The translations under genes and the position numbers were made by a program. The notes beneath the pieces were generated by a model. The model was not told where the DNA came from and searched no databases. It saw only the letters and a program-made list of their open reading frames with translations. From Alopecurus myosuroides (taxonomy: Eukaryota > Streptophyta > Magnoliopsida > Poales > Poaceae): 64,000 bases of DNA. Positions 25,364 through 56,280 of the stretch are shown here, in pieces (position 1 is the first letter of the stretch; each line of letters begins with the position of its first letter). Location of the stretch: NCBI GenBank assembly GCA_028641055.1, contig CM054063.1:48171920-48235919 (forward strand). The letters are read 5' to 3'.

Positions 25364-25368
25364 CAAGG

Positions 25369-26870
25369 TGAAAGTTCAATATGGTCAACTAGAGGGGGGG
25401 GGGGAGGGTGAATAGGTGACCTACAAATTTTAATGCTTTTCAACTTTTAGTGGGGGCTTTTAAGAAAGTAAATACTTGATTAGCTAGATGTGCAACTAAA
25501 TGAGTAACCTAGGTGATACGAAGCAAGTAGCAGCGGATATAAAGGAACGGTACAAGAGAACAACAAGTGAAAACACGGAGACAAGGATATGTTTCCCGTA
25601 GTTCCTTCTTAAAAGAAGTACGTCTACGTTGGAGAGGTGGGGAGCCACCTAGGCGCTCCTCAATAGCACGGATGTGCACACCTTGTTCTCCTTGAGCTTC
25701 TCCGGTGAGAGAGATGCTCGTTTCCACTATGAGGTCGACTTGAAGGCGTTGACCAAACCTTTACAAGGGGGTTGAGGCTACTCCACAAGTGAGATGGAGG
25801 CTCTCAACAATCGAAGCTTCTTGCTACAAGGTGGAAGTTACAAGCACTAGGGTTTCCCTTGGATGACAAAGCAACCAAGAGATTACAAGATCCCGAGAGT
25901 TGTGGTGTGGGTACACACGTTTTGGCTTGGTGGAAAGGTAGATCTAATCCTCCTCCATGAGATCCTTGAAGGGCATCGAGTTTGGTTGGAGGAGGAGAGA
26001 GATCGGGGCGTTTTGAGCTCTACAACAATGGAGGAGAGAGAGGAATGGACGAGCTACCTATCTAGAGGAAGAAGACAGCTATTTATAGGCTCCTCCAAAT
26101 TCTGACCGTTGCAGTCCCGCGGGACCGGAAATTTCCGGGGTAAAGGCCGGAATATTCCGGTGTGAGTTGACCGGATAATTGAAAACTCCGGGGGGCGGAT
26201 AATTAAAAAATCCGGGGCGGAAATTTCCGCCCCAATACTCCGCTCCCATCTCTGTGCGCAGGCATCAACATGTTGAAGAAAAATTGCAAAGGACCAAGGG
26301 CCGGAGATTTGCTCCGGAAATTTCCGGGGCAAATTTCCGCCCCACCTTCTGTGCGCGGGCATCAACTTATGATAGGAAAATGGCTAAGGACTTCGATGCC
26401 CGGAATATTGAAATATCCGGGGGGCGGATAATTGAAATGTCCGGGCCCGGAATTTTCCGGACTGAATCTCCGCCCCCATCTCTGTGCGCGGGCAACATGA
26501 AGTAGTCCAATTTCTGCTAAGTCCTTGAAGGCCGGATTTTTGCCCGGAAATTTCCGGGGCAAATTTCCGCCCTGGCTTCTGTGCGCGGGCAGACAAACAC
26601 TTGGTCGTTTTCGTGGAAGCCAGATAGGAGGCCGGAAATTTCCGGCGAGAGGGCCGGATAATCCGCTCCTTAAGTTCCGGAATTTCCGCCCTTTATACTG
26701 AAAAATCCGGTGGCTGTAATTCCACAATAGAGAGCTTCTCTTTGATCTTTTGACGAGGATATAACGATGATCATCTAAGATAATAGCTGCACAGGCTGAA
26801 TCACATGTTAGATAGGAGATATCCGTGTTATCATCATCACCAAAATCATTAGAGGGATCATGAGCTTTCA
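25369..26870 (-). repeat. 3' LTR of the copia element
   Basis: 1,502 bp, TG...CA bounded, near-identical to 35965-37447 apart from scattered substitutions and small indels (for example around 26215-26250). It contains a TATA box (cctataaatag on the minus strand, 26079-26089) and upstream of it the palindrome array 26125-26715. Confidence 0.93.
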
Positions 26871-26886
26871 ATCTCCCCCTTTTTGG
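26871..26886 (-). other. Polypurine tract of copia element
   Basis: On the minus strand ccaaaaagggggagat directly abuts the 3' LTR start. This is the plus-strand DNA priming site expected at that position. Confidence 0.85.
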
Positions 26887-27173
26887 TGAATGATGACAAC
26901 ACGGGTATTTGCGGGGAATAAAGCTAACTATGCAGGATATGAAAACGTCACAGATAGCATATATAGGAGACATGCCTCCCAATAATAATAGTTCAACATA
27001 AAAGATGAGTACGGTAGAACGAAGTTCGAAAAAGACGCACGAAAACGGAAATGGCAACAAAGAACGAAAGAAACCCTCCCAAGCAAATCCCCACGATCAT
27101 CTAAATCTTCTCCCCCTTTGGCATCAAGACACCAAAAAGAGAAAAGAGAGAGCTACATCCCATGGAGCACACT

Positions 27174-29037
27174 CTAGGCCTGGGCGTCCTCTTCTTCCTC
27201 TTCAGCTTCACTGTCGGTGGCATCCTCCATGTCCTCATCTTCATCAACACCGATATCCCAGTCAACGTCACGGTTGTTCCAGTTCTTGTACGCAACCCGA
27301 GGAGGAGGAAGAGGTGGCACAGTGGGAGTCTTGAGGGCAGTCATGATGTGGTGCTGGTTCTCTAAAATAGTGCGACGCTCCACATAGGCAACGTAGTTCT
27401 CCTTGTGGACGCAAACCATCAAGCTCAGCACCTTCTCAACAGCACGAGCAAGCCACGAGCGCTTCTTCTTGCCAGGAGGAGGAGGACGCATGCGAGCATC
27501 CCTGTGTCCCTATCCAGATGCGCCAACATTATGAGCGGCCTGCTGCGTGTGGGCGGACTTCTTATAGAGATTGACGTCCTTGTGATCCTCACAGTCTAAC
27601 TCCAAGTCTTCTCGGAGTGCTTCAGGATAGCGTGCCTTGATGAGCTTCATGATGTAGGGGGCATATGGAGGCACCTTGCGATGGAAGAGAGCATAGTGGA
27701 TCTCATTGAAAATGAAACCATCACATCAATCCTGTGAGCCTCCATATCAGTCATATCAGTCCCAGAGAAGGTCAAGAAGGCGTGGTGCATAAGGTTGACC
27801 AAGCCACCACGAATAGCATCATTGTTTCCCCCACTTGGAGCAATGGACTCCCTGAGCATGCGCAGGAGGATATCATAGACTGCGAAGAGGCCTTTAGCTG
27901 ATCCAATTGTACCCTGAGAACCATAGAGCTCAGCAAGCCTGTTCTTCTCATACTCTTCCCCATGGATGTGCATGCGGTGGCCCTGTGGAGTGTTGAGGCC
28001 AGCAAACGGATAGTCAAGTACAGTGGCAAAGTCATGAAAGTTTGCAGTGAGCATGTGAGGGCCAGACATCCAAGTCATCCCAATCTCTTCAGAATCATCA
28101 ATGACTAGAGTGGCATAGAACTGCTGGATGTAGGTGGTGTTGTAGGAGCACCGAGTCTCCATAAGCGGACGCATACCAAGAACCTCAGCAAGCTGAACAG
28201 AGTTGTTGAAGTAATCTGGGTGGGCATCTAGATGAGCAAAATTGATCACCTTCATGGGGCACACTGGTTTTCTCATTACGGTGTACACTTGCTTGAAGAG
28301 GGTCTCCTGCTCAACGTGCCAAAAGCACGAGTCAATAGTGGGGTCCTGAGGACCCTCCGTGTACCAAGCCTTGGCACGCCATGCCTTAAACTCTACAATG
28401 GGCATGGTGCCCACATTGAGAGTGGCCTTGCCTTGCTGCCTACCACCTCGGCGAGCCGCCCGATCAGCATCACGTTGCTGCTCATATGCTCTCTGAGTAT
28501 CTCTTTCACGCCGGCGAGTCTCATTGTCTTCTACATAGGTCCCCTCCTCATTTTCTGTCAGGTGACGGAGGCGCTTGCGGGAACTGAGCAGCTTGCCAGA
28601 CCTAGAGGTGGAACCATCTGCGAGGAAAGCAGAAAAAATCCAAAGAAAAAACAAACAAGAATCAAAACCAGGGGCTCACGAATTGAGGAATGGAATATCG
28701 TGGAGTTCTGTTGGAGATTCAGTATAGGCCGGAAATTCCGGTCATGGACACGGAAATTCCGGAGGATGGAAATTCCGGCCTCAGGGCAAATTTCCGGCGT
28801 GCGGAAATTCTGGCCCTGGGCGGAAATTTCCGGCCTTCAGGATTTTCGAATTCAGATCTGAATCTGGGCCTATAACGAATCTAGAACGAGGAATCTAGTA
28901 CGAGGATGAATACTTGAGAATATATGGTACTTTGTTGAGCAAAGAACCATGCGAGAACATGAATAACACAAGATAGAGGAACAATGCATCTACTCAACCC
29001 AAAATTGCGGAGAAAACAAACACGTACCGGGATCCAT
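27174..29037 (-). pseudogene. Extra copia gene after pol, own promoter, two exons, broken
   Basis: Exon 1 is tiny: ATGGATCCCG at 29037-29028, followed by donor GTACGTG. The intron ends in ctttcctcgcag (acceptor AG at 28619-28618) and exon 2 starts at 28617, joining in phase into DGSTSRSGK. Exon 2 codes for a basic segment (RRRERDTQRAYEQQRDADRA), then a folded domain with MPIVEFKAWRAKAWYTEGP, YIQQFYATLVID and FHDFATVLDYPFAG, and an acidic tail ending in EEEEEDAQA. It resembles proteins known as putative plant transposon proteins (inference by pattern). It occupies the envelope position, but I see no signal peptide or membrane helix. A one-base shift near 27705-27720 and an in-frame TAG at 27510-27512 break this copy. 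The intact form would have been near 485 residues. Confidence 0.65.
28729..28837. promoter_or_regulatory. Palindrome cluster within the intron of the extra gene
   Basis: A third, smaller set: ccggaaattccgg, cggaaattccgg, aaatttccgg and cggaaatttccgg within about 110 bp, all inside the intron 29027-28618. Function unknown. Confidence 0.55.
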
Positions 29038-29201
29038 GAATCAGGAAAGGACGTGCGGTCTCTTGATCCGCAAGGGAAAAGGAGAGGATGAAGAGGGGAG
29101 GCGAATAGGCCTCCCGGAGGTCTTGGAGGCGGCGGCGGCTGGCTGGGGGCGAGTGGAGAGACGAGGGGAGGGAAGCAACGCGGACTGCTCCCTCCCGTCG
29201 T

Positions 29202-29211
29202 CCTTATATAG
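29202..29211 (-). promoter_or_regulatory. TATA box of the extra copia gene
   Basis: The minus strand reads CTATATAAGG about 165 bases upstream of ATG 29037, followed by a GC-rich, pyrimidine-rich leader typical of a grass 5' UTR. A perfect CCGGAAATTTCCGG palindrome ends 16 bp upstream (29228-29241). Confidence 0.65.
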
Positions 29212-29227
29212 CCCCAGACCAAGAGCA

Positions 29228-29551
29228 CCGGAAATTTCCGGCATTAATACCGGATATTCCGGCGTCCGGAGATTTGGGCCGGAATATTCCGCCCAAATAT
29301 CCGGTGTGCCTTCTGCGAGCGGGCACGCTGGATAGTTGGGGAATTATTCGAGTCCAAATCTAACTCCGGAAATTTCCGTGGCTTAAGACACGGAATATTC
29401 CGGGCCCCGGAAATTTGGTCCGGAAATTTCCGCTGAAATTTCCGGTGTGCCTTCTGCGAGCGGGCACAACGGAAGTTAGCGAAATTTCTGGGTCAAACGT
29501 CTGAGGGCCGGAATATTCCGGTCCAGAACCGGAATTTCCGGAGTGCCAACG
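29228..29551. promoter_or_regulatory. Palindrome array upstream of the internal TATA box
   Basis: About seven dyads of the forms CCGGAAATTTCCG(G) and CCGGAATATTCCG(G), interleaved with two copies of a spacer (ccttctgcgagcgggcac) nearly identical to that in the LTR array. It sits between the end of pol (29908) and the internal TATA box. Confidence 0.65.
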
Positions 29552-29907
29552 CCATCCGAGTTTGGTGGAAGATGGATCAAAACGTGAGCCTCCAAAAACG
29601 GAAAACACAAATAATCGAACAAACACGAGGAAAACATCAAACAAAACACATTCAAAGGAAAAAGTTGGTGGCCGGAGCCACCGTGTTTGAGTGACACCAA
29701 GGAGCCGCGAAGATGTATCTTGGACTCAAGAGTATCACTCACGTTTTTAAGCACAATAAGTCACGAACTGACTAGATATGCATTACGTTTTGATTGTTTT
29801 ATGCATGATAGGTGGAGTGTTTGTTCATGAGTTGAACTACGCTCCCCTATGTCCATGCCTACATCTAGACTAGATAGCACATATAGTGAAGGTATGCATG
29901 AAAGGGT

Positions 29908-32900
29908 TCAAGAGAAGTTAGACGCATCGATCACATTTAGTTCATTCCTCAAACCCCGAAATCTTGGTTCATCAAGGGCCTTCGTGAAGATATCCGCGAG
30001 TTGATCCTTGGTAGCAACATAGGAGAGGTCAATATCACCCTTCTCAACATGATCCCGAATGAAGTGATGCCGTATCTCAATGTGCTTCGTCTTGGAGTGA
30101 AGAACGGGATTGTAGGCGATCTTGATGGCACTCTCATTATCGCACAAGAGAGGAACGTTGTCGAAGATGATGCCATAATCTCTCAATGTTTGCCGCATCC
30201 AAAGTAATTGAGCACAACAACTAGCCGCGGAGATGTATTCGGCCTCAGTGGTGGAGAGAGCAATGCAGTTTTGCTTCTTGGACGACCAACATACCAATGA
30301 GCGGCCAAGAAATTGACAACTTCCGGATGTAGATTTCCTATCCGTCTTCTCTCCCGCATAGTCCGCATCCGAATACCCAATGAGCTGAAAGCTTGAACCC
30401 TTGGGATACCAAAGACCAAAGTTTGGGGTATGAACTAAATATCGAAAGATACGCTTAACTGCTTCAAGGTGACTTTGTCTTGGGGAGGCTTGAAACCTTG
30501 CACATTTACCAACGCTATACATAATATCGGGTCTAGATGCACAAAGGTAAAGCAAAGAGCCAATCATGGAGCGGTATACCTTTTGATCTACCTCTTTACC
30601 ATTCGGATCGGGTTTCAAATCAGTAGTCGTGGACATGGGAGTCTTCATAGGTTTAGCATCATGCATATTGAATCTCTTGAGCATATCTTGAGTATACTTG
30701 GCTTGCTTAATAAATGTGCCTTCTGGATGTTGCTTGATCTCAAAGCCAAGAAAATACTCCAATTCTCCCATCATAGACATCTCGAACTTGTCCGTCATAA
30801 GCTTGCAAAACTCATCATTGAATGCAACGTTAGTGGAACCAAAGATGATATCATCCACATAGAGTTGGCATATGAACAAGTCGCCTCCGACCTTTTTGGT
30901 GAAAAGGGTGGGATCGATTAAACCAAAATTGAACCCACGATCTACCAAAAACTCTTTAAGGTGCTCGTACCACGCACGTGGAGCTTGTTTAAGCCCATAT
31001 AGTGCCTTATTGAGTTTGTAGACATGATCGGGGTGGTTGGGATCTTCGAAACCCGGAGGTTGCTTGACATAAACCAACTCATGGATGGGACCATTCAAAA
31101 AAGCACTTTTAACATCCATTTGTTGCAATTTGAAGTTATGATGAGAGGCATATGCAAGTAAGATACGAATAGATTCAAGACGAGCAACGGGAGCGAATGT
31201 TTCACCGAAATCGACACCTTCGACTTGAGAGAAGCCTTGAGCAACCAATCTAGCCTTGTTGCGGATGATGATGCCGTCCTTGTCTTGTTTTTTCTTGAAG
31301 ATCCATTTAGTGCCGATGACGTTCTTGCAATCTTTGGGCCTTGGAACCAATTTCCACACTTTGTTGCGCTCGAAATTGTTGAGTTCATCGTGCATAGCTT
31401 CAAGCCAATCTTGATCTTCAAGAGCTTCATAGACCTTCTTTGGCTCAATGTGAGAGACGAATGCATGAGCTTTGCTAAAGTCCGCTAGTTGCCTTCTTGT
31501 GACGACCCTTCCACGAACTTGTCCAAGAATCATGTCCTCCGTGTGACCGGCACGAGCAAGATTATCTAGCCTTCTCTTTGCTCTACGAGCTAGCATCTCC
31601 TCCAAAGTTTCCTTGGATAGTACTTGATCATCACCTTCATCATCGGAGACATGTCCACCTTGGTCTTGATCATTGATGGGAGGTGGATCCCTTATGTGAT
31701 GAATTACATCATCACCATGTGTATCTTGTTCTTCATTATGAGCTTGGCCTTGATTGTTTGCTTGGCCTTGTGGTGAGGCATGAGGGCTTGGTGCATCTTG
31801 TTGGGTAGCATGGTTATCAATGGATGTAGTCAATGGCTCCACTTGAGTAGAGCATAGTCCTTCTCCCTCCGTCATCCGGTGTTCCTCAATGGGTATTATT
31901 TCACCAATCCCCATTCTTCTTATGACGATGGGAGGGATTGCATCTCCTACAAAACCATGATCTATACGGCCCCCTTGGGACCCATTATCCTCATCGAACA
32001 CCACGTCTATAGCTTCTTCAACTTGTCCGGTGGATTTGTTGTAGACTCTATAGGCGTGAGAGTTTGTGGCATAACCAACAAAGATACCCTCATAGGATTT
32101 AGTCTCGAACTTTGACAAGCGTTTCCCTCTTTTGCGAATGAAGCATTTGCATCCAAAGACCTTGAAGTATGAAACGTCCGGCTTCTTGCCCGTGAGAATC
32201 TCATAGGGGGTCTTGTTCAAAATCTTGCGGAGATATAATCGGTTGCTAGCATGACAAGCGGTGGAGACGGCCTCGGCCCAAAAGTTGTAAGGAGAAGAGA
32301 ACTCTGCAATCATGGTACGAGCCGCATCCATAAGAGTCCGATTCTTTCTCTCCGCCACACCATTTTGTTGAGGTGTGTAGGGAGTGGAATATTGATGAGC
32401 AATGCCTTCCTCACTAAGAAACCCCTCAACGGTGTAGTTCTTGAACTCGGAGCCATTATCACTTCGGATAGCCATGATACTTGTATTATGTTGTCTTTCC
32501 ACCAAAGTGATGAACTCGATGACCCGCTTTTGAGTCTCACTCTTTCTCTTGAAGAAGTACACCCAACAATATCGTGAGTAATCATCCACAATCACCAAGC
32601 AATACTTCTTGCCTCCAAGACTATCATATGATAGAGGACCAAAGAGGTCCAAGTGAATGAGCTCGAGGATTCTTGATGTAGTGATGTTTGTCTTGGTGGG
32701 ATGTGCTTCTCCATGTTGCTTTCCTAGAACGCAAGAGCTACACACACGATCTTTGGCAAACTTAGCATTTGTTAGTCCTAGAACGTGATTGCCACTTTGA
32801 AGGTCATGCAACGTCCTCATATTGGTGTGGGCTAACCGGCGATGCCATAGCCAACCCACATCAACTTTAGCCATTATGCATGTCGCGGCACACGTGTCTC

Positions 32901-33274
32901 CTTTGGAGAAGTCCACTACATACATGCCGTTCTCGACATGCGCAACAAAGGCTACTTTAAGAGTCGTTTCCCAAGTGACAATCACATTCTCCTTATTAAA
33001 GAAAGAGGTAAAACCACTTTTAGCAAGTTGAAGAACCGAGATGAGATTGTAGCCAAGGGACTCAACAAGAAGAACATTCTCAATTGACAAGTCATTTGAG
33101 ATTGCTACCTTGCCTCGTCCCAATACCTTTAGTTCGGAGTTGTCACCAATAGTAACGCAATTGAGATGAGGTAATGGAGGATGAATATCACTCATTGCGT
33201 CATTGCTTCCGGTCATATGTTGGGATGCACCACTATCTACCGTCCATTTGCTCGAACCGGAAGCACTTCCCTAC
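29908..33274 (-). CDS. pol: Copia pol: protease, integrase, RT, RNase H
   Basis: The longest ATG frame is 33216-29908 (1,102 codons), but the protease active site ([12 protein letters not shown]) lies just upstream in the same frame, so the domain begins soon after the TAG at about 33266. Then come the GAG-pre-integrase zinc region (HRRLAH...[10 protein letters not shown]), the integrase D,D,E triad in [17 protein letters not shown] and NGVAERKNR (about residues 189, 250 and 286), reverse transcriptase with [10 protein letters not shown] and YVDDIIFGS (about 787), and RNase H ([21 protein letters not shown]). All catalytic residues that I can check are present and no internal stop occurs. It follows gag in the +1 frame. 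It would copy element RNA and integrate the DNA. Confidence 0.92.
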
Positions 33275-33280
33275 AATAGA

Positions 33281-35911
33281 TTAGTTGCTTGATTTAGGGA
33301 CCCATCTTTGAATGGGTCCTCTCATGTTAGCGACAAGGGTCTTAGGAACCCAAATACTCCAATGATAATCGTCACCATAAGAAGTACCAACATATTTAGC
33401 ATAAACATGACCATCTCTAGACTTCATAAGAACATAAGATGGATTATATTTCCCGGCAAAGTTATTGTGAGTGGTGCTCCCCCTAGAGGTCTCACCACCC
33501 ACAATGGTGTTGGTCTCCTTCCCTTTGGTCACCTCTCCCTCTTTCACAAATCTTACTTCTTGTGAGGAGGAGGTGACTCTCTTCTTGTTCTTCTTCTTGT
33601 ACTTCTTCTTTGACTTGGCTATGTAGCCAAGTCCCTCCTTTCCATTGTTGGCACGTTGAGAATCAATCTCATGGGAACTCTTCTCATTTCCTACAAGATT
33701 AGTTGTACTACAAGAATTGCTAGACAAGACATTCAAGCTAGAAAGTGAAGTGGATACAACTTGCTTGTTTGATTGTTGAGCTAGAAGATTGTCACGAGAT
33801 TTGGTTAACTTGTCATGAATTTCCTTAAGAGACATGAACTCCTTTTCAAGTTTTTCATAACGAGTACCAAGTTCCTCGTGAGCAATTCCTAGCTTCAATT
33901 CTTCATGCTCAAGAGTTTTAATTAAGGCAAGAGATTGAGCATTTTCCTTCCTAAGCTTAGAGACACTTATGGCAAAGTTTTCTTCAAGACAAGACAATTT
34001 CTCCTCAAGTGAGGCACGAATGGAACGCTCATTATCAAGAGCTTTTTCAAGCTCTTGCTCATTGCAAGTGTGACCTCCATGGCTTTCTAAGGTCATGATG
34101 ATCTCCTCCTTTTCATCAACAAGAGAGTTAGCCTCATCAAGTTGCCCCAAAAGGGAGTTCACCTTTTCCTTAGTCTCACCCTTAAGGCTAGATAGCCATA
34201 TGCTTAACTCATTAGACTCACTATCCTTCTCACATGCATTTTCAACACAATCCAATAACGAAGGAGGGTTAGTGACAATGGTCTTGGAGTTGGGAGAGCA
34301 TACCGAAGTGGCTTTTGCCATAAGACATGTAGGTCGGGTAGCCACATTCTCATTGGGGGATTCGAATAGAGAGATTGAAGGTGAGGATGCGGTGGCCTTG
34401 GCGATGTGAGCAACTCCAACTACCTCATCTTCTCCTTCATCTCCGGAGATGTAAGTCTCAAGAACCGCCCCTTCTTGAACGTAGAGAGCTCTTGGCACCT
34501 TCCTTGCAAAGTTCTTGTTTTGAGGAGGCTTAGTCTTGTTCTTGCGAATGAGCTTGCCTTTGTTTTCTTCTCTTGGCTCAAAGGGGCACTCCTTCACGAA
34601 GTGGTTAGCGCTACCACAATTATAGCATGTCCTTGGTCGCTCCCCCTTCTTCTTGTAGTTCTTGTTTCGTGGAGGCCTTGGAGATCCGGTCTTGTGAGCT
34701 TCCCATCTCTTCCAATATCCATGCATAGCAAGGGAAATGCACTTGTGAGCTCCTGTGTAAGTATCTTCATAGTCTTCCTCATCATCATCATCTTCTTCAC
34801 TTTCATCAACTCGAGCCATTGCCGTTGACTTCAATGCAAGGTTGGGAGACTTTCCTATCCCTCTAGAGCGAGCTAGAGCATCATCCGCACTCTTGTGTGA
34901 GAGAGAGATTGCGATGAACTCACTAAGAACACCTATGGAGTTGAGAGTATTGTAGTCCGCTCTTGTCCGGATGCTAGTGGCGAGATTCTTCTCGAAGGGT
35001 GTGATAGCCTTGACAAACTTCCTCTTTATCCATTCATCCGTGATCTCTTCCTTGCCAAAGTCTCTCAGTTGATTGGCGAGAGTGACAACTCGTCTATAGA
35101 GCTCTTCAGGAGTCTCATCCTCTTGCATAACGAAGTTCTCGGAGTTATCAATGGCCACATCATACTTGGAGGACTGAATACTAGCATTTCCTTGAAACAA
35201 GGTATCAAGTTTGTCCCAAGCTTCCTTGGCGGTCTTGCAACCGCGAATGTGAGTGAGATGCTCCCTTGGGAGAGCCTTCTGGATAATAACAAGAGCAGTT
35301 TTGTTGAGTTGAGATTCAACATCCTCCCTTGGAGTCAAGTTGCTTGGATCATGAGGATGAAATCCATGGATCACGCTTCTCCACAATGCCGTACACGATC
35401 CTGAAATGTGAGATTCCATTTCAAACTTCCAAGAGGAAAATTCGTTAGTGTTAAGGATGGGTGGAACTCCAACATTAAGGATGTGTGGCATGGAAACGAT
35501 TGGGTGGATAGAATCATAGTTTTGTGGTGGTGGAACTTTAGAATTGGACCCCGAACCATTAGCCGTTTGAGACTTGGAGCCACCGTCACTCTCCTTAGCT
35601 TTGGCTTTAGCCTTTTGTGCGGCTTTAGCCTTAGCTTTGGCAATGTTTTCTTCGATTTCGGAAATATCCGGATTTGTTTCCTCATCCGAACTATCCTCAT
35701 CGGTGACATGGGGTGAGTGAGACGGCTCCTTGGTTCTACCCATCATGTTCTCCAACATCTTCTTGATGGAGGAAACCTCCGAGCCCACACTAGAGCTAAC
35801 CTTGGACAATTGGGTTTGAATGGTACAAACCGTTGTCTCAAGGTTGGCTATAGTGTCAGCCATTTTGGAGAGCTCCTCCTTAGAAGATTCGGGATCATCC
35901 CCGTTGACCAT
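33281..35911 (-). CDS. gag: Copia gag polyprotein
   Basis: 876 codons, starting 53 bp after the 5' LTR. The N-terminal third is charged, with a short coil. The UBN2/gag-type capsid domain begins near residue 155 (FSSWKFEMESHI) and includes the region KAITPFEKNLATSIRTRADY. A canonical CCHC zinc knuckle (CYNCGSANHFVKEC, about residues 427-440) binds RNA. Residues about 590-715 are a long coiled coil (LEKALDNERSIRASLEEKL and onward), and the C-terminus is basic. The protein assembles the cytoplasmic particle that packages element RNA. The frame is intact and ends with TAA at 33281-33283, a few residues after the conserved RWVPKS. Unusually long for copia gag but normal for Maximus/SIRE. Confidence 0.9.
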   Translation of the reverse strand: MVNGDDPESSKEELSKMADTIANLETTVCTIQTQLSKVSSSVGSEVSSIKKMLENMMGRTKEPSHSPHVTDEDSSDEETNPDISEIEENIAKAKAKAAQKAKAKAKESDGGSKSQTANGSGSNSKVPPPQNYDSIHPIVSMPHILNVGVPPILNTNEFSSWKFEMESHISGSCTALWRSVIHGFHPHDPSNLTPREDVESQLNKTALVIIQKALPREHLTHIRGCKTAKEAWDKLDTLFQGNASIQSSKYDVAIDNSENFVMQEDETPEELYRRVVTLANQLRDFGKEEITDEWIKRKFVKAITPFEKNLATSIRTRADYNTLNSIGVLSEFIAISLSHKSADDALARSRGIGKSPNLALKSTAMARVDESEEDDDDEEDYEDTYTGAHKCISLAMHGYWKRWEAHKTGSPRPPRNKNYKKKGERPRTCYNCGSANHFVKECPFEPREENKGKLIRKNKTKPPQNKNFARKVPRALYVQEGAVLETYISGDEGEDEVVGVAHIAKATASSPSISLFESPNENVATRPTCLMAKATSVCSPNSKTIVTNPPSLLDCVENACEKDSESNELSIWLSSLKGETKEKVNSLLGQLDEANSLVDEKEEIIMTLESHGGHTCNEQELEKALDNERSIRASLEEKLSCLEENFAISVSKLRKENAQSLALIKTLEHEELKLGIAHEELGTRYEKLEKEFMSLKEIHDKLTKSRDNLLAQQSNKQVVSTSLSSLNVLSSNSCSTTNLVGNEKSSHEIDSQRANNGKEGLGYIAKSKKKYKKKNKKRVTSSSQEVRFVKEGEVTKGKETNTIVGGETSRGSTTHNNFAGKYNPSYVLMKSRDGHVYAKYVGTSYGDDYHWSIWVPKTLVANMRGPIQRWVPKSSN

Positions 35912-35950
35912 GATTACTCTTAGGCGGTTAAGCCCGATAAAAGAGCCGAG

Positions 35951-35962
35951 GCTCTGATACCA
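35951..35962 (-). other. Primer binding site, initiator tRNA-Met
   Basis: The minus strand reads TGGTATCAGAGC two bases after the 5' LTR. This is the standard site complementary to the 3' end of plant initiator methionine tRNA, used by copia elements. Confidence 0.95.
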
Positions 35963-35964
35963 AT

Positions 35965-37447
35965 TGAAAGTTCAATATGGTCAACTAGAGGGGGGGGGTG
36001 AATAGGTGACCTACAAATTTTAATTCTTTTCAACTTTTAGTGGGGGCTTTTAAGAAAGTAAATACTTGATTACCTAGATGTGCAACTAAATGAGTAACCT
36101 AGGTGATACGAAGCAAGTAGCAGCGGATATAAAGGAACGGTACAAGAGAACAACAAGTGAAAACACGGAGACAAGGATATGTTTCCCGTAGTTCCTTCTT
36201 AAAAGAAGTACGTCTACGTTGGAGAGGTGGGGAGCCACCTAGGCGCTCCTCAATAGCACGGATGTGCACACCTTGTTCTCCTTGAGCTTCTCCGGTGAGA
36301 GAGATGCTCGTTTCCACTATGAGGTCGACTTGAAGGCGTTGACCAAACCTTTACAAGGGGGTTGAGGCTACTCCACAAGTGAGATGGAGGCTCTCAACAA
36401 TCGAAGCTTCTTGCTACAAGGTGGAAGCTACAAGCACTAGGGTTTCCCTTGGATGACAAAGCAACCAAGAGATTACAAGATCCCGAGAGTTGTGGTGTGG
36501 GTACACACGTTTTGGCTTGGTGGAAAGGTAGATCTAATACTCCTCCATGAGATCCTTGAAGGGCATCGAGTTTGGTTGGAGGAGGAGAGAGATCGGGGCG
36601 TTTTGAGCTCTACAACAATGGAGGAGAGAGAGGAATGGACGAGCTACCTATCTAGAGGAAGAAGACAGCTATTTATAGGCTCCTCCAAATTCTGACCGTT
36701 GCAGTCCCGCGGGACCGGAAATTTCCGGGGTAAAGGCCGGAATATTCCGGTGTGAGTTGACCGGATATTTGAAAACTCCGGGGGGCGGATAATTGAAAAA
36801 TCCGGGGGCGGAAATTTCCGCCCCCATCTCTGTGCGTAGGCATCAACATGTTGAAGAAAAATTGCAAAGGACCAAGGGCCGGAGATTTGCTCCGGAAATT
36901 TCCGGGGCAAATTTCCGCCCCACCTTCTGTGCGCGGGCATCAACTTATGATAGGAAAATGGCTAAGGACTTCGATGCCCGGAATATTGAAATATCCGGGG
37001 GGCGGATAATTGAAATGTCCGGGCCCAGAATTTTCCGGACTGAATCTCCGCCCCCATCTCTGTGCGCGGGCAACATGAAGTAGTCCAATTTCTGCTAAGT
37101 CCTTGAACGCCGGATTTTTGCCCGGAAATTTCCGGGGCAAATTTCCGCCCTGGCTTCTGTGCGCGGGCAGACAAACACTTGTCGTTTTCGTGGAAGCCAG
37201 ATAGGAGGCCGGAAATTTCCGGCGAGAGGGCCGGATAATCCGCTCCTTAAGTTCCGGAATTTCCGCCCTTTATACTGAAAAATCCGGTGGCTGTAATTCC
37301 ACAATAGAGAGCTTCTCTTTGATCTTTTGACGAGGATATAACGATGATCATCTAAGATAATAGCTGCACAGGCTGAACCACATGTTAGATAGGAGATATC
37401 CGTGTTATCATCATCACCAAAATCATTAGAGGGATCATGAGCTTTCA
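35965..37447 (-). repeat. 5' LTR of the copia element (promoter)
   Basis: 1,483 bp. The minus-strand U3 begins at 37447. The TATA box (cctataaatag) is at 36669-36679, and upstream lie at least six perfect palindromes of the CCGGAAATTTCCGG/CCGGAATATTCCGG type separated by a recurring spacer (tctgtgcgcgggca). Confidence 0.93.
36715..37290. promoter_or_regulatory. Palindrome array in copia 5' LTR promoter
   Basis: Perfect dyads include 36715-36728 (CCGGAAATTTCCGG), one near 36738 (CCGGAATATTCCGG), and others near 36893, 37121 and 37209, plus GCGGAAATTTCCGC near 36805. Imperfect half-sites fill the gaps. Repeating blocks end in ttctgtgcgcgggca. The dyad nearest the gene lies 35 bp upstream of the TATA box. 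A second copy of the array is at 26125-26715 in the other LTR. Confidence 0.7.
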
Positions 37448-37452
37448 CAAGG

Positions 37453-55000: not shown

Positions 55001-56280
55001 GGACAGAACCGTTTTTGGCCTACCTATCGCGAGGCGAGTTACCACAGCAGGAGGTATTAGCAAGGCAAATTTTGAGGCGAGCAAAGGGATATTCTATCAT
55101 CAATGGGGAATTATATAAGAGAAGCGCAGCAGGGGTCTTTTTGCGCTGCGTAGCGCCAGAAGAAGGCCGACAGATTCTCAAGGAAATCCACGAAGGCGAC
55201 TGTGGACATCATGCGTCCACAAGATCTCTCGTGGCTAAAGCTTATCGACACGGGTTTTTCTGGCTCACGGCTCTAGCAGACGCGGAACAATTGGTAGCAA
55301 GGTGTGACGGATGTCAAAGGTACGCTCGCCAAACCCATGTGCCGGCTATGGAGTTACGGACCATCCCGTTAACTTGGCCGTTCGCCGTCTGGGGTATGAA
55401 CATGGTTGGCCCATTTCATATGTCACCATGCAAGAAGACACATCTTTTGGTGGCTATTGATAAGTTTACCAAATGGGTTGAGGTTATGCCAGTTACTAAT
55501 TGCGAATCAGCCACAACAGTCAAGTTCCTGAAAAGGATTATCTACCGGTTCGGGTATCCCCACAGCATAATTACCGACAATGGAACCAACATGTCCCTTG
55601 GTGAGATGGAGAGGTTCTGTGGCAACAATGGAATCCGGCTTGATGTCGCATCAGTGGCTCATCCACAGGCCAATGGACAAGTGGAGAGGGCAAACCAAGA
55701 ATTGCTTCGCGGATTAAAACCACGATTACGAGTCCCCTGTATAAGGGCAGCTGGCGCATGGGTCGAAGAACTTCCTTCTGTGGTTTGGGGTATCAATACA
55801 TCGCCTAATAGATCTACTCAGATGACACCCTTCTTCATGGTCTATGGCGCGGAGGCAGTACTACCGAGTGATATTATTCATGATTCACCACGAGTATCAG
55901 CATACGTCGAAGTGGAGAATGAAAAAACCCGGCAAGATGCTATGGATATGTTAGAAGAGCAAAGGGAACAAGCCCTGGAAAGATCAGCCATATATCAGCA
56001 GGATTTACGAAGGTATCATAGCCGGCACGTGAAAACCCGGGTCTTCCAGGAAGGAGACCTGGTTCTGCGCCTGGTACAGTCGAACGAAGGAAAGCACAAG
56101 TTATCACCACCCTGGGAAGGACCGTTTATCATAAGCCGGAATCTGCATAATGGGTCATATTACTTGATAGATGCAAGGGAAGAGTCGACCACAATTAATG
56201 ACACCGCTCACACCACTTCGTCTATGCAAGAAAGAGACAGACCGTGGAACGTGGCTCAGCTACGTCCATATTATACTTAG
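51925..56280 (+). CDS. pol: Inner gypsy polyprotein: leader fused to pol, no capsid
   Basis: The frame is open from 51898 to TAG 56280; the first ATG is 51925, inside the LTR. It reads through the PBS (PRQLAPTVGPA), then a leader with GEIYIDHKGEKM and GRINIFIGM, and passes directly to the protease (LMDGGSSINILY, about residue 195). The gag capsid and zinc knuckle are missing. RT has FLDAYSGYHQIKL and YVDDVVIKT (about 581). The first RNase H has lost its Asp (LLYVAAG), while the second has MHFDGCK, NVAEYEALL, FGDSDLV and EAADALARL. Integrase has GHHAST...CDGCQRY, ITDNGTN and GQVERANQ, but the first catalytic Asp is Asn (GMNMVGP, about residue 1168). No chromodomain. Numbering counts from 51898. 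The long open frame suggests recent activity of relatives, but this copy cannot integrate itself. Confidence 0.9.
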   Translation: MFSSELNPLPNACVVLPQDQLPPVTSAVIIPRQLAPTVGPASKGVYITGEARKNMENLVVGEIYIDHKGEKMVDDSGWGPESGHLESGSMVTIGRINIFIGMVRTPDLKGQYHVHTTGTSSRNKETLKRAVNSVSSAAPGYLRWAEQEVTWSRRDHPERVERPGVLALVVAPQVNGYELKRVLMDGGSSINILYWETFLRMSLKESQLQKSSTVFHGIVPGHSASPEGKITLEVAFGESTDNYRVEWLTFEVVKLRSPYHALFGRPAYAKFMARPCYVYLQLKIPGPKRTITIHGNRDIAAECDEGDSVMVEQACRKEELEYYRSQVNPDDRTALKKPNTEDERAKFKAAQDTKKVDFVEGDSTKQFTIGSNLGKEQEKALVEFIRSNADVFAWTPSDMPGIPTELAEHSLHVDPKSRPVKQGLRKMNEERRKAIGEEIARLLAAGFIMEVFHPDWLANPVLVMKKTNEWRMCIDFTSLNKHCPKDPFALPRIDQIIDTVAGSDLLCFLDAYSGYHQIKLKREDWEKTSFITPFGAFCYKTMKFGLKNAGATYQRCIQKCFEDQIGRNVHAYVDDVVIKTRKAETFIDDLKETFKNMRRYQMKLNPTKCVFGVPAGKLLGFIVSERGIEANPDKIKAIQNLKKPENLKHVQKLTGCVAALSRFISRLGEKAIPLYRLLRKSDKFVWDQEADEAFEALKKQLSEAPVLAAPGPKEPMLLYVAAGPRAVSAVVVVERKEDGKGYPVQRPVYYVSEVLSEAKQRYPHWQKLVFGVFMASRKLKPYFQEHPITVVSSIPMSDIIRNSDATGRIAKWAIDMGDYHINYEPRSAIKSQALIDFVNDWTHTGMTTTVPNSESWVMHFDGCKQYEGSGAGVVLTSPKGDKLSYVLQIHFDCSNNVAEYEALLHGLRAAKEMNVKRIRCFGDSDLVVQQVSGTWDRKDATMAAYRREVDRVAGCFSGYEVEHIDRRKNEAADALARLGSRREPVPPNVFLDELWRPSVKTESEEELANQDPDSGLVATVRTIPEWTEPFLAYLSRGELPQQEVLARQILRRAKGYSIINGELYKRSAAGVFLRCVAPEEGRQILKEIHEGDCGHHASTRSLVAKAYRHGFFWLTALADAEQLVARCDGCQRYARQTHVPAMELRTIPLTWPFAVWGMNMVGPFHMSPCKKTHLLVAIDKFTKWVEVMPVTNCESATTVKFLKRIIYRFGYPHSIITDNGTNMSLGEMERFCGNNGIRLDVASVAHPQANGQVERANQELLRGLKPRLRVPCIRAAGAWVEELPSVVWGINTSPNRSTQMTPFFMVYGAEAVLPSDIIHDSPRVSAYVEVENEKTRQDAMDMLEEQREQALERSAIYQQDLRRYHSRHVKTRVFQEGDLVLRLVQSNEGKHKLSPPWEGPFIISRNLHNGSYYLIDAREESTTINDTAHTTSSMQERDRPWNVAQLRPYYT
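52025..52042 (+). other. Primer binding site, inner gypsy element
   Basis: TGGCGCCCACCGTGGGGC starts two bases after the LTR. It is identical to the site of the outer element (63155-63172, minus strand). I do not assign the tRNA. Confidence 0.85.

Follow-up and report, generated by a model that had tools for sequence, protein, structure and literature searches.

Analysis of a 64,000-nucleotide stretch of the Alopecurus myosuroides genome (contig CM054063.1, positions 48,171,920 to 48,235,919; hereafter the window, within which all positions are given) revealed a Ty1/copia retrotransposon, best fitted by the genus Sirevirus, that carries an accessory open reading frame (aORF) on its sense strand between pol and the 3' long terminal repeat (LTR). 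The aORF is preceded by a putative promoter composed of palindromic boxes and a spacer module that also occur in the U3 region of the LTR, and in structure models of related proteins the core has a fold like that of VANC21 (PDB 9lnj). We judge the chances to be about even that the gene is a Sirevirus eORF-3'F forming a separate transcription unit, whose product is not an envelope and would instead be a VANC21-fold protein that binds the palindromes of its own family and counteracts silencing. The original prediction for this locus had proposed a sense-strand gene with an autonomous promoter and an intron; the LTR boxes in that promoter and the VANC-like fold suggested by modeling go beyond it.

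Organization of the accessory gene

The gene and its upstream region comprise the following features, all on the minus strand, listed with the boxes of the 3' LTR:

29229-29540, minus: eight CGG-A/T-CCG palindromes (RM boxes), 22.9 per kilobase (kb) of 29211-29560, upstream of the internal TATA box
29452-29463, minus: spacer module CCGCTCGCAGAA, common to the LTR U3
29311-29322, minus: second copy of the spacer module
29203-29210, minus: internal TATA box TATATAAG, 17 nucleotides (nt) past the last palindrome
29038-29180, minus: GC-rich leader without ATG, transcription start assumed
29028-29037, minus: coding exon 1, 10 nt, ATGGATCCCG, matching M-[DE]-x-G in relatives
28618-29027, minus: GT-AG intron, 410 nt, phase 1
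28730-28832, minus: three palindromes within the intron
27174-28617, minus: exon 2 of the accessory (envelope-like, or env-like) gene, with a frameshift and a TAG in this copy
26126-26688, minus: nine palindromes in the U3 of the 3' LTR, with TATAAATA at 26087-26080

Every feature named in the original prediction (TATA box, GC-rich leader, 10-base exon, GT-AG intron, and long second exon) is thus present. The ATG at 29037 is the sole ATG in 29215-28990, and the donor at 29027, GTACGT, is the sole GTRNGT from 29250 to 28000 (1.25 kb). The acceptor ending at 28618, with 16 pyrimidines in 20 positions, is the best downstream of this donor; 44 nt ahead of it is TTGAT, which resembles a branch point. 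The splice-site and branch-point patterns are those of general knowledge. Exon 1 ends with one base of a split codon that exon 2 completes, and the two exons therefore join in phase, as had been predicted; in the plant, the intron would be removed by splicing at these sites. The frame of exon 2 is open up to a frameshift near 27716-27719, after which comes a TAG at 27512-27510, and the same two lesions had been recognized in the original prediction, which looked to other copies for an intact frame. A tblastn search with 23 relatives revealed that 13 cross both lesion sites, nine stop before one or both, and one has no match, a count biased by the preference of the protein database for open frames. 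Open versions of the frame therefore exist.

Two other routes of expression were considered and ruled out. Stop-codon suppression from pol, in the style of SIRE1, is ruled out by the ∼1.3-kb linker that separates pol from exon 2, and unspliced translation from the leader ATG by a stop that its frame meets inside the intron. Translation may alternatively start at an internal Met of exon 2; the alignment of relatives contains no invariant Met near the exon 2 start.

A putative internal promoter resembling a second U3

The palindromes of the element number nine in the 3' U3, eight in the 5' U3, eight in the aORF promoter, three in the intron, and one in gag-pol, with three more in the 51.9 kb outside the element. 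None was found in R-U5, in exon 2 and the stretch downstream of it, or in the linker at 29561-29907. The gag-pol palindrome, at 35659 inside gag, is the only one in the element beyond U3, aORF promoter, and intron. Searching with a loose form of the pattern gave 32 palindromes, compared with a mean of 4.67 and a maximum of 11 in 100 runs of a first-order Markov control. The 14-mer CCGGAAATTTCCGG, with up to two mismatches, has 21 sites versus 0.46 expected, a number reached in 0 of 100 shuffles, and 20 of these sites fall within U3 of the LTRs or near the start of the accessory gene. The non-palindromic spacer, counted in either of two forms, is present in 10 copies (eight in the LTRs and two in the aORF promoter) versus 0.13 expected.

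The boxes lie in tandem units in both places: the unit of the LTR measures 230 nt, and the linker has a pair of 97 nt whose members are 78 percent alike. The LTR duplication (26171-26591) carries palindromes, and box number can therefore change by gain or loss of units. Methylatable CCGG is abundant in the palindrome clusters. The pattern TATAWAWR occurs at four sites of the element's minus strand, which are the two LTR promoters, 29210, and 26965, and the distance from last palindrome to TATA box is 37 nt in the LTR versus 17 nt in the linker. Given the shared boxes, the tandem units, and the placement of the TATA box, the internal promoter resembles a second U3, and transcription would start near 29180. 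This architecture lends partial support to the proposed promoter. Such genes have a precedent for a promoter of their own, and the idea is partly in print, an internal promoter having been argued for the Sirevirus env, without conclusive identification, in passages of Bousios et al. 2010 (PMC2829016).

Evidence for the exon junction in relatives

Protein sequences of relatives give support beyond this copy to the intron as well as to the 10-base coding exon. P0001-P0003 are most closely related to the gene in the window. Among 119 relatives, 100 are labeled Lolium, many with a Copia reverse transcriptase (RT) attached, the query itself being a Lolium protein. Nine relatives from raw contigs extend to where exon 2 begins with basic residues. 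Of these, six (P0007, P0092, P0098, P0110, P0112, and P0122) continue upstream into acceptor-like sequence, which in most is rich in Phe, Leu, Ser, and Pro and which ends with Thr and, at the junction, Gly or Asp; the Lolium gene models P0042 and P0132 also have Thr-Gly there, and the window has Ala-Asp (GCA-G|AT). The eight read-through junctions were picked out by eye among 138 proteins and hence do not constitute an independent test. Of the remaining three raw-contig relatives, P0100 and P0103 start at the junction with MPKRKRR. P0037, from a 3.6-kb contig that may be DNA or RNA, reads M-D-V-G, and M-D-V-(G) is the expected product of a 10-nt first exon in phase 1.

Within a group of 77 proteins sharing an SSDE motif, M-[DE]-x-G precedes exon 2 in eight (P0028, P0035, P0037, P0039, P0046, P0062, P0079, and P0101), a pol stretch with DPN-G in 40, and other sequence in 29, these start patterns having been picked from the same sequences. 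The residue before the fixed exon 2 start could be set in 73 of the 77 and is Gly in 61, Ser in eight, and Cys, Arg, Val, and Ile in one each. Gly, Ser, Cys, and Arg are the products of a codon N-GT, and consequently the residue is consistent with a single split codon in phase 1 in 71 of 73, irrespective of the donor. P0039 corresponds to Lolium perenne LOC127296116 (nr); most other proteins of the group are gene models from one Lolium multiflorum annotation and hence do not constitute transcript evidence. Another Lolium gene model, P0019, fuses the tail of a gypsy integrase to the aORF, and is probably a gene-model chimera or else a gypsy element with the same gene.

The 40 DPN-G Lolium gene models, in nearly all of which the pol stretch is fused directly to exon 2 (P0137 being joined at another junction), would suit a different origin of the same protein, in which splicing links an LTR transcript to the acceptor of exon 2, in the manner of Bagy-2 or Athila, and neither the internal TATA box nor the boxes form a promoter. 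Splicing of env has been reported for Bagy-2 (in a passage of PMC7264820) and splice acceptors have been predicted for Athila (in a passage of PMC2829016). However, pol-joined models can be artefacts of gene finding, eight of the 77 relatives start with M-[DE]-x-G, and a U3-like box cluster, a TATA box, an ATG-free leader, and an in-phase exon stand directly before the gene. Expression from genomic RNA therefore appears rather unlikely. The interpretation in the original prediction is thus upheld in part: its intron and tiny exon by the proteins of relatives, and its internal promoter to the extent that the architecture speaks for it.

A VANC21-like core in structure models and no membrane helix by hydropathy

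The core of the models of relatives is VANC21-like in fold, a similarity that surfaced only in a second look with VIA-align; Foldseek comparisons with the PDB and, for the first model, with viral models gave nothing significant. Three sequence searches of the PDB revealed no VANC relative; one query gave eight weak matches, the best (2.2e-05) to 28 residues of a designed protein, and the other two gave 0 matches and one weak match. Transposase_32 (PF20167) is matched weakly, at best with 4.8e-08 and 33.5 bits, which is below the curated cut-off of 45 bits, as are the scores of all proteins for which the scans gave one; in the precomputed Pfam column of the database it is assigned to some relatives. 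Rfam gave no match, and three scans of viral contigs revealed no relative. Among the papers that searches of open-licence PMC literature listed, judged by titles, starts of abstracts, and passages, none links a Sirevirus env-like gene with VANC, and the modeled VANC-like identity of an env-like protein was not found there.

The position of the gene on the sense strand between pol and the 3' LTR is that of an envelope-like or movement protein, which would act as a structural or cell-to-cell factor made from its own promoter. Transmembrane and coiled-coil domains have been described for Sirevirus ENV (in a passage of PMC3414828), and a C-terminal coiled coil is predicted in P0002. Against such a role, the N terminus is basic, the modeled core matches a DNA-binding protein, and no membrane-like window was found in 12 sequences, where the highest 19-residue hydropathy value is 1.47. 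The earlier statement that the protein shows no membrane helix agrees with these hydropathy values; hydropathy was also the sole criterion for a signal peptide, and a true N terminus is missing from several of the 12 sequences. An envelope or movement function is accordingly quite improbable.

Proposed mechanism and its significance

In the anti-silencing reading, which we regard as the most likely mechanism, the boxes and spacer module shared with U3 would drive an mRNA in which a 10-nt coding exon (M-D-x) is spliced onto one long exon. The encoded protein, with a basic N terminus, a VANC21-like core, and a coiled-coil tail, and not an envelope, would enter the nucleus, where its targets would be the palindromes specific to its family that lie in the LTRs and in the promoter and intron of its own gene. 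Bound there, it would relieve methylation or activate transcription, and the element would thereby counteract host silencing and keep up its own expression. Passages on sunflower SIRE elements describe a marked drop in CG methylation between the LTRs, for which other causes are possible (PMC12844716).

Some findings weigh against this mechanism. DUF1985 is undetected: neither it nor DUF287 is among the matches at E values up to 10 in sets of 18 and 8 proteins, in searches where HMMER filters drop most weak hits. Furthermore, some Sireviruses without ENV retain LTR boxes, and six that have ENV lack boxes, as described in part of PMC2829016. Retention of LTR boxes in ENV-less elements would suit boxes that are only small interfering RNA or chromatin features, or products of LTR-linker recombination, alongside a protein that does something else in the nucleus, for example binding RNA or suppressing silencing. 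Palindromes of maize Sireviruses are described as small-RNA hotspots (in a passage of PMC5311732), and another plant aORF has been likened to double-stranded RNA-binding proteins (in a passage of PMC11728184). However, linker boxes track ENV, being present in 9 of 9 box-bearing Sirevirus elements that have ENV but in 0 of 4 that lack it (PMC2829016, Table 3), and the modeled fold is that of a motif-binding protein. We consider the small-RNA or chromatin explanation unlikely.

More broadly, the env-like genes of Sireviruses, and perhaps those of further plant LTR retrotransposons such as Athila, could be VANC-type sequence-specific anti-silencing factors rather than envelopes, co-evolving with family palindromes in LTR, promoter, and intron, a generalization that we advance tentatively and with more doubt than belief. 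What plant env-like genes do has been a question ever since a 1998 paper described the SIRE1 gene. If the protein does bind the palindromes, one answer would cover the env-like gene, the boxes in the LTR and before the gene, and the differences in box sequence from family to family. Self-directed anti-silencing would then be a strategy of Copia elements, and the so-called envelope-like genes would acquire a new reading. Under the broader generalization, retrotransposons and Mutator-like element (MULE) DNA transposons would share one self-protection system. Sirevirus is described as an extensive colonizer of grass genomes (in a passage of PMC3414828).

Anatomy and classification of the element

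The whole element is in minus-strand orientation, and its remaining features are as follows:

37448-37452 and 25364-25368, no strand: target site duplication CCTTG, on both flanks
35965-37447, minus: 5' LTR, TG..CA, with U3 palindromes and TATA box at 36677-36670, delimited by blastn and junction reading
33281-35971, minus: gag open reading frame (stop to stop) with gag_2, a CCHC knuckle, and a long C-terminal extension
29908-33270, minus: pol open reading frame (stop to stop) with gag_pre-integrs, integrase, and RVT_2
27109-27118, minus: extra copy of the polypurine tract, AAGGGGGAGA
26871-26884, minus: terminal polypurine tract adjoining the 3' LTR
25369-26870, minus: 3' LTR

Alignment of the two LTRs shows 10 differences in 1482 sites, corresponding to ∼0.26 million years at an assumed substitution rate of 1.3e-8, a value from general knowledge. 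The order is that of Copia, with PF14223 and CCHC in gag and with rve, SH3, and RVT_2 in pol, where integrase is ahead of RT. CGG..CCG motifs occur in U3 and upstream of ENV (17 in the two U3s, eight upstream, and three in the intron), a polyC stretch lies close to the LTR end, and an exact-pattern search found two polypurine tract copies, near 27118 and 26881, in keeping with the multiple copies of Sireviruses; totals in print, in part of PMC2829016, are 3-5. The boxes, layout, extra polypurine tract, and polyC stretch fit a Sirevirus of the Ty1/copia type. The gag and pol frames differ at their junction (33270-33281), through what may be either a programmed change of frame or a lesion. Elsewhere in the window, remnants of Ty3/gypsy pol lie at 46416-45895 (minus) and 55645-56166 (plus), with ∼27 percent identity to the gypsy integrase part of P0019 from Lolium.

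Comparison with known systems

The title of Gomez-Orte et al. 2013 attributes to Grande, a plant LTR retrotransposon, an accessory gene that has a promoter of its own and encodes a nuclear protein. The maize Grande gene is antisense (in a passage of PMC7264820), unlike that described here. The Athila aORF is similar in that PF20167 is reported there too (in a passage of PMC11728184), the match being weak here. The same layout is known from the ENV elements of Sirevirus (the SIRE/Maximus lineage of Ty1/copia), where RM boxes are likewise found both in U3 and immediately before the gene, a TATA box follows the LTR boxes, the polypurine tract is present in an additional copy, and polyC lies close to the end of the LTR (in passages of PMC2829016). 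Beyond that account, in whose main text the word "intron" occurs 0 times, the TATA box, ATG-free leader, 10-nt exon, and box-bearing intron are resolved here, and a predicted fold is assigned to the protein.

VANC21 belongs to VANDAL21, a MULE DNA transposon, whereas the present element is a Ty1/copia retrotransposon, and the VANC21 motif is YAGTATTAY rather than a CGG..CCG palindrome; DUF1985 and DUF287 were undetected here. For VANC21, binding and demethylation have been demonstrated, whereas the palindrome clusters here are known from sequence. As described in part of PMC5735166, VANC21 causes loss of methylation, and the YAGTATTAY clusters that it binds lie in tandem repeats of non-coding sequence, among them regions upstream of VANA21 and the VANC21 intron; regions hit by VANCs are enriched in targets of RNA-directed DNA methylation (in a passage of PMC10398659). 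The two systems are alike in the predicted core fold of the protein and in their short motifs, which in both form clusters within tandem repeats, ahead of genes, and inside the intron of the protein's own gene.
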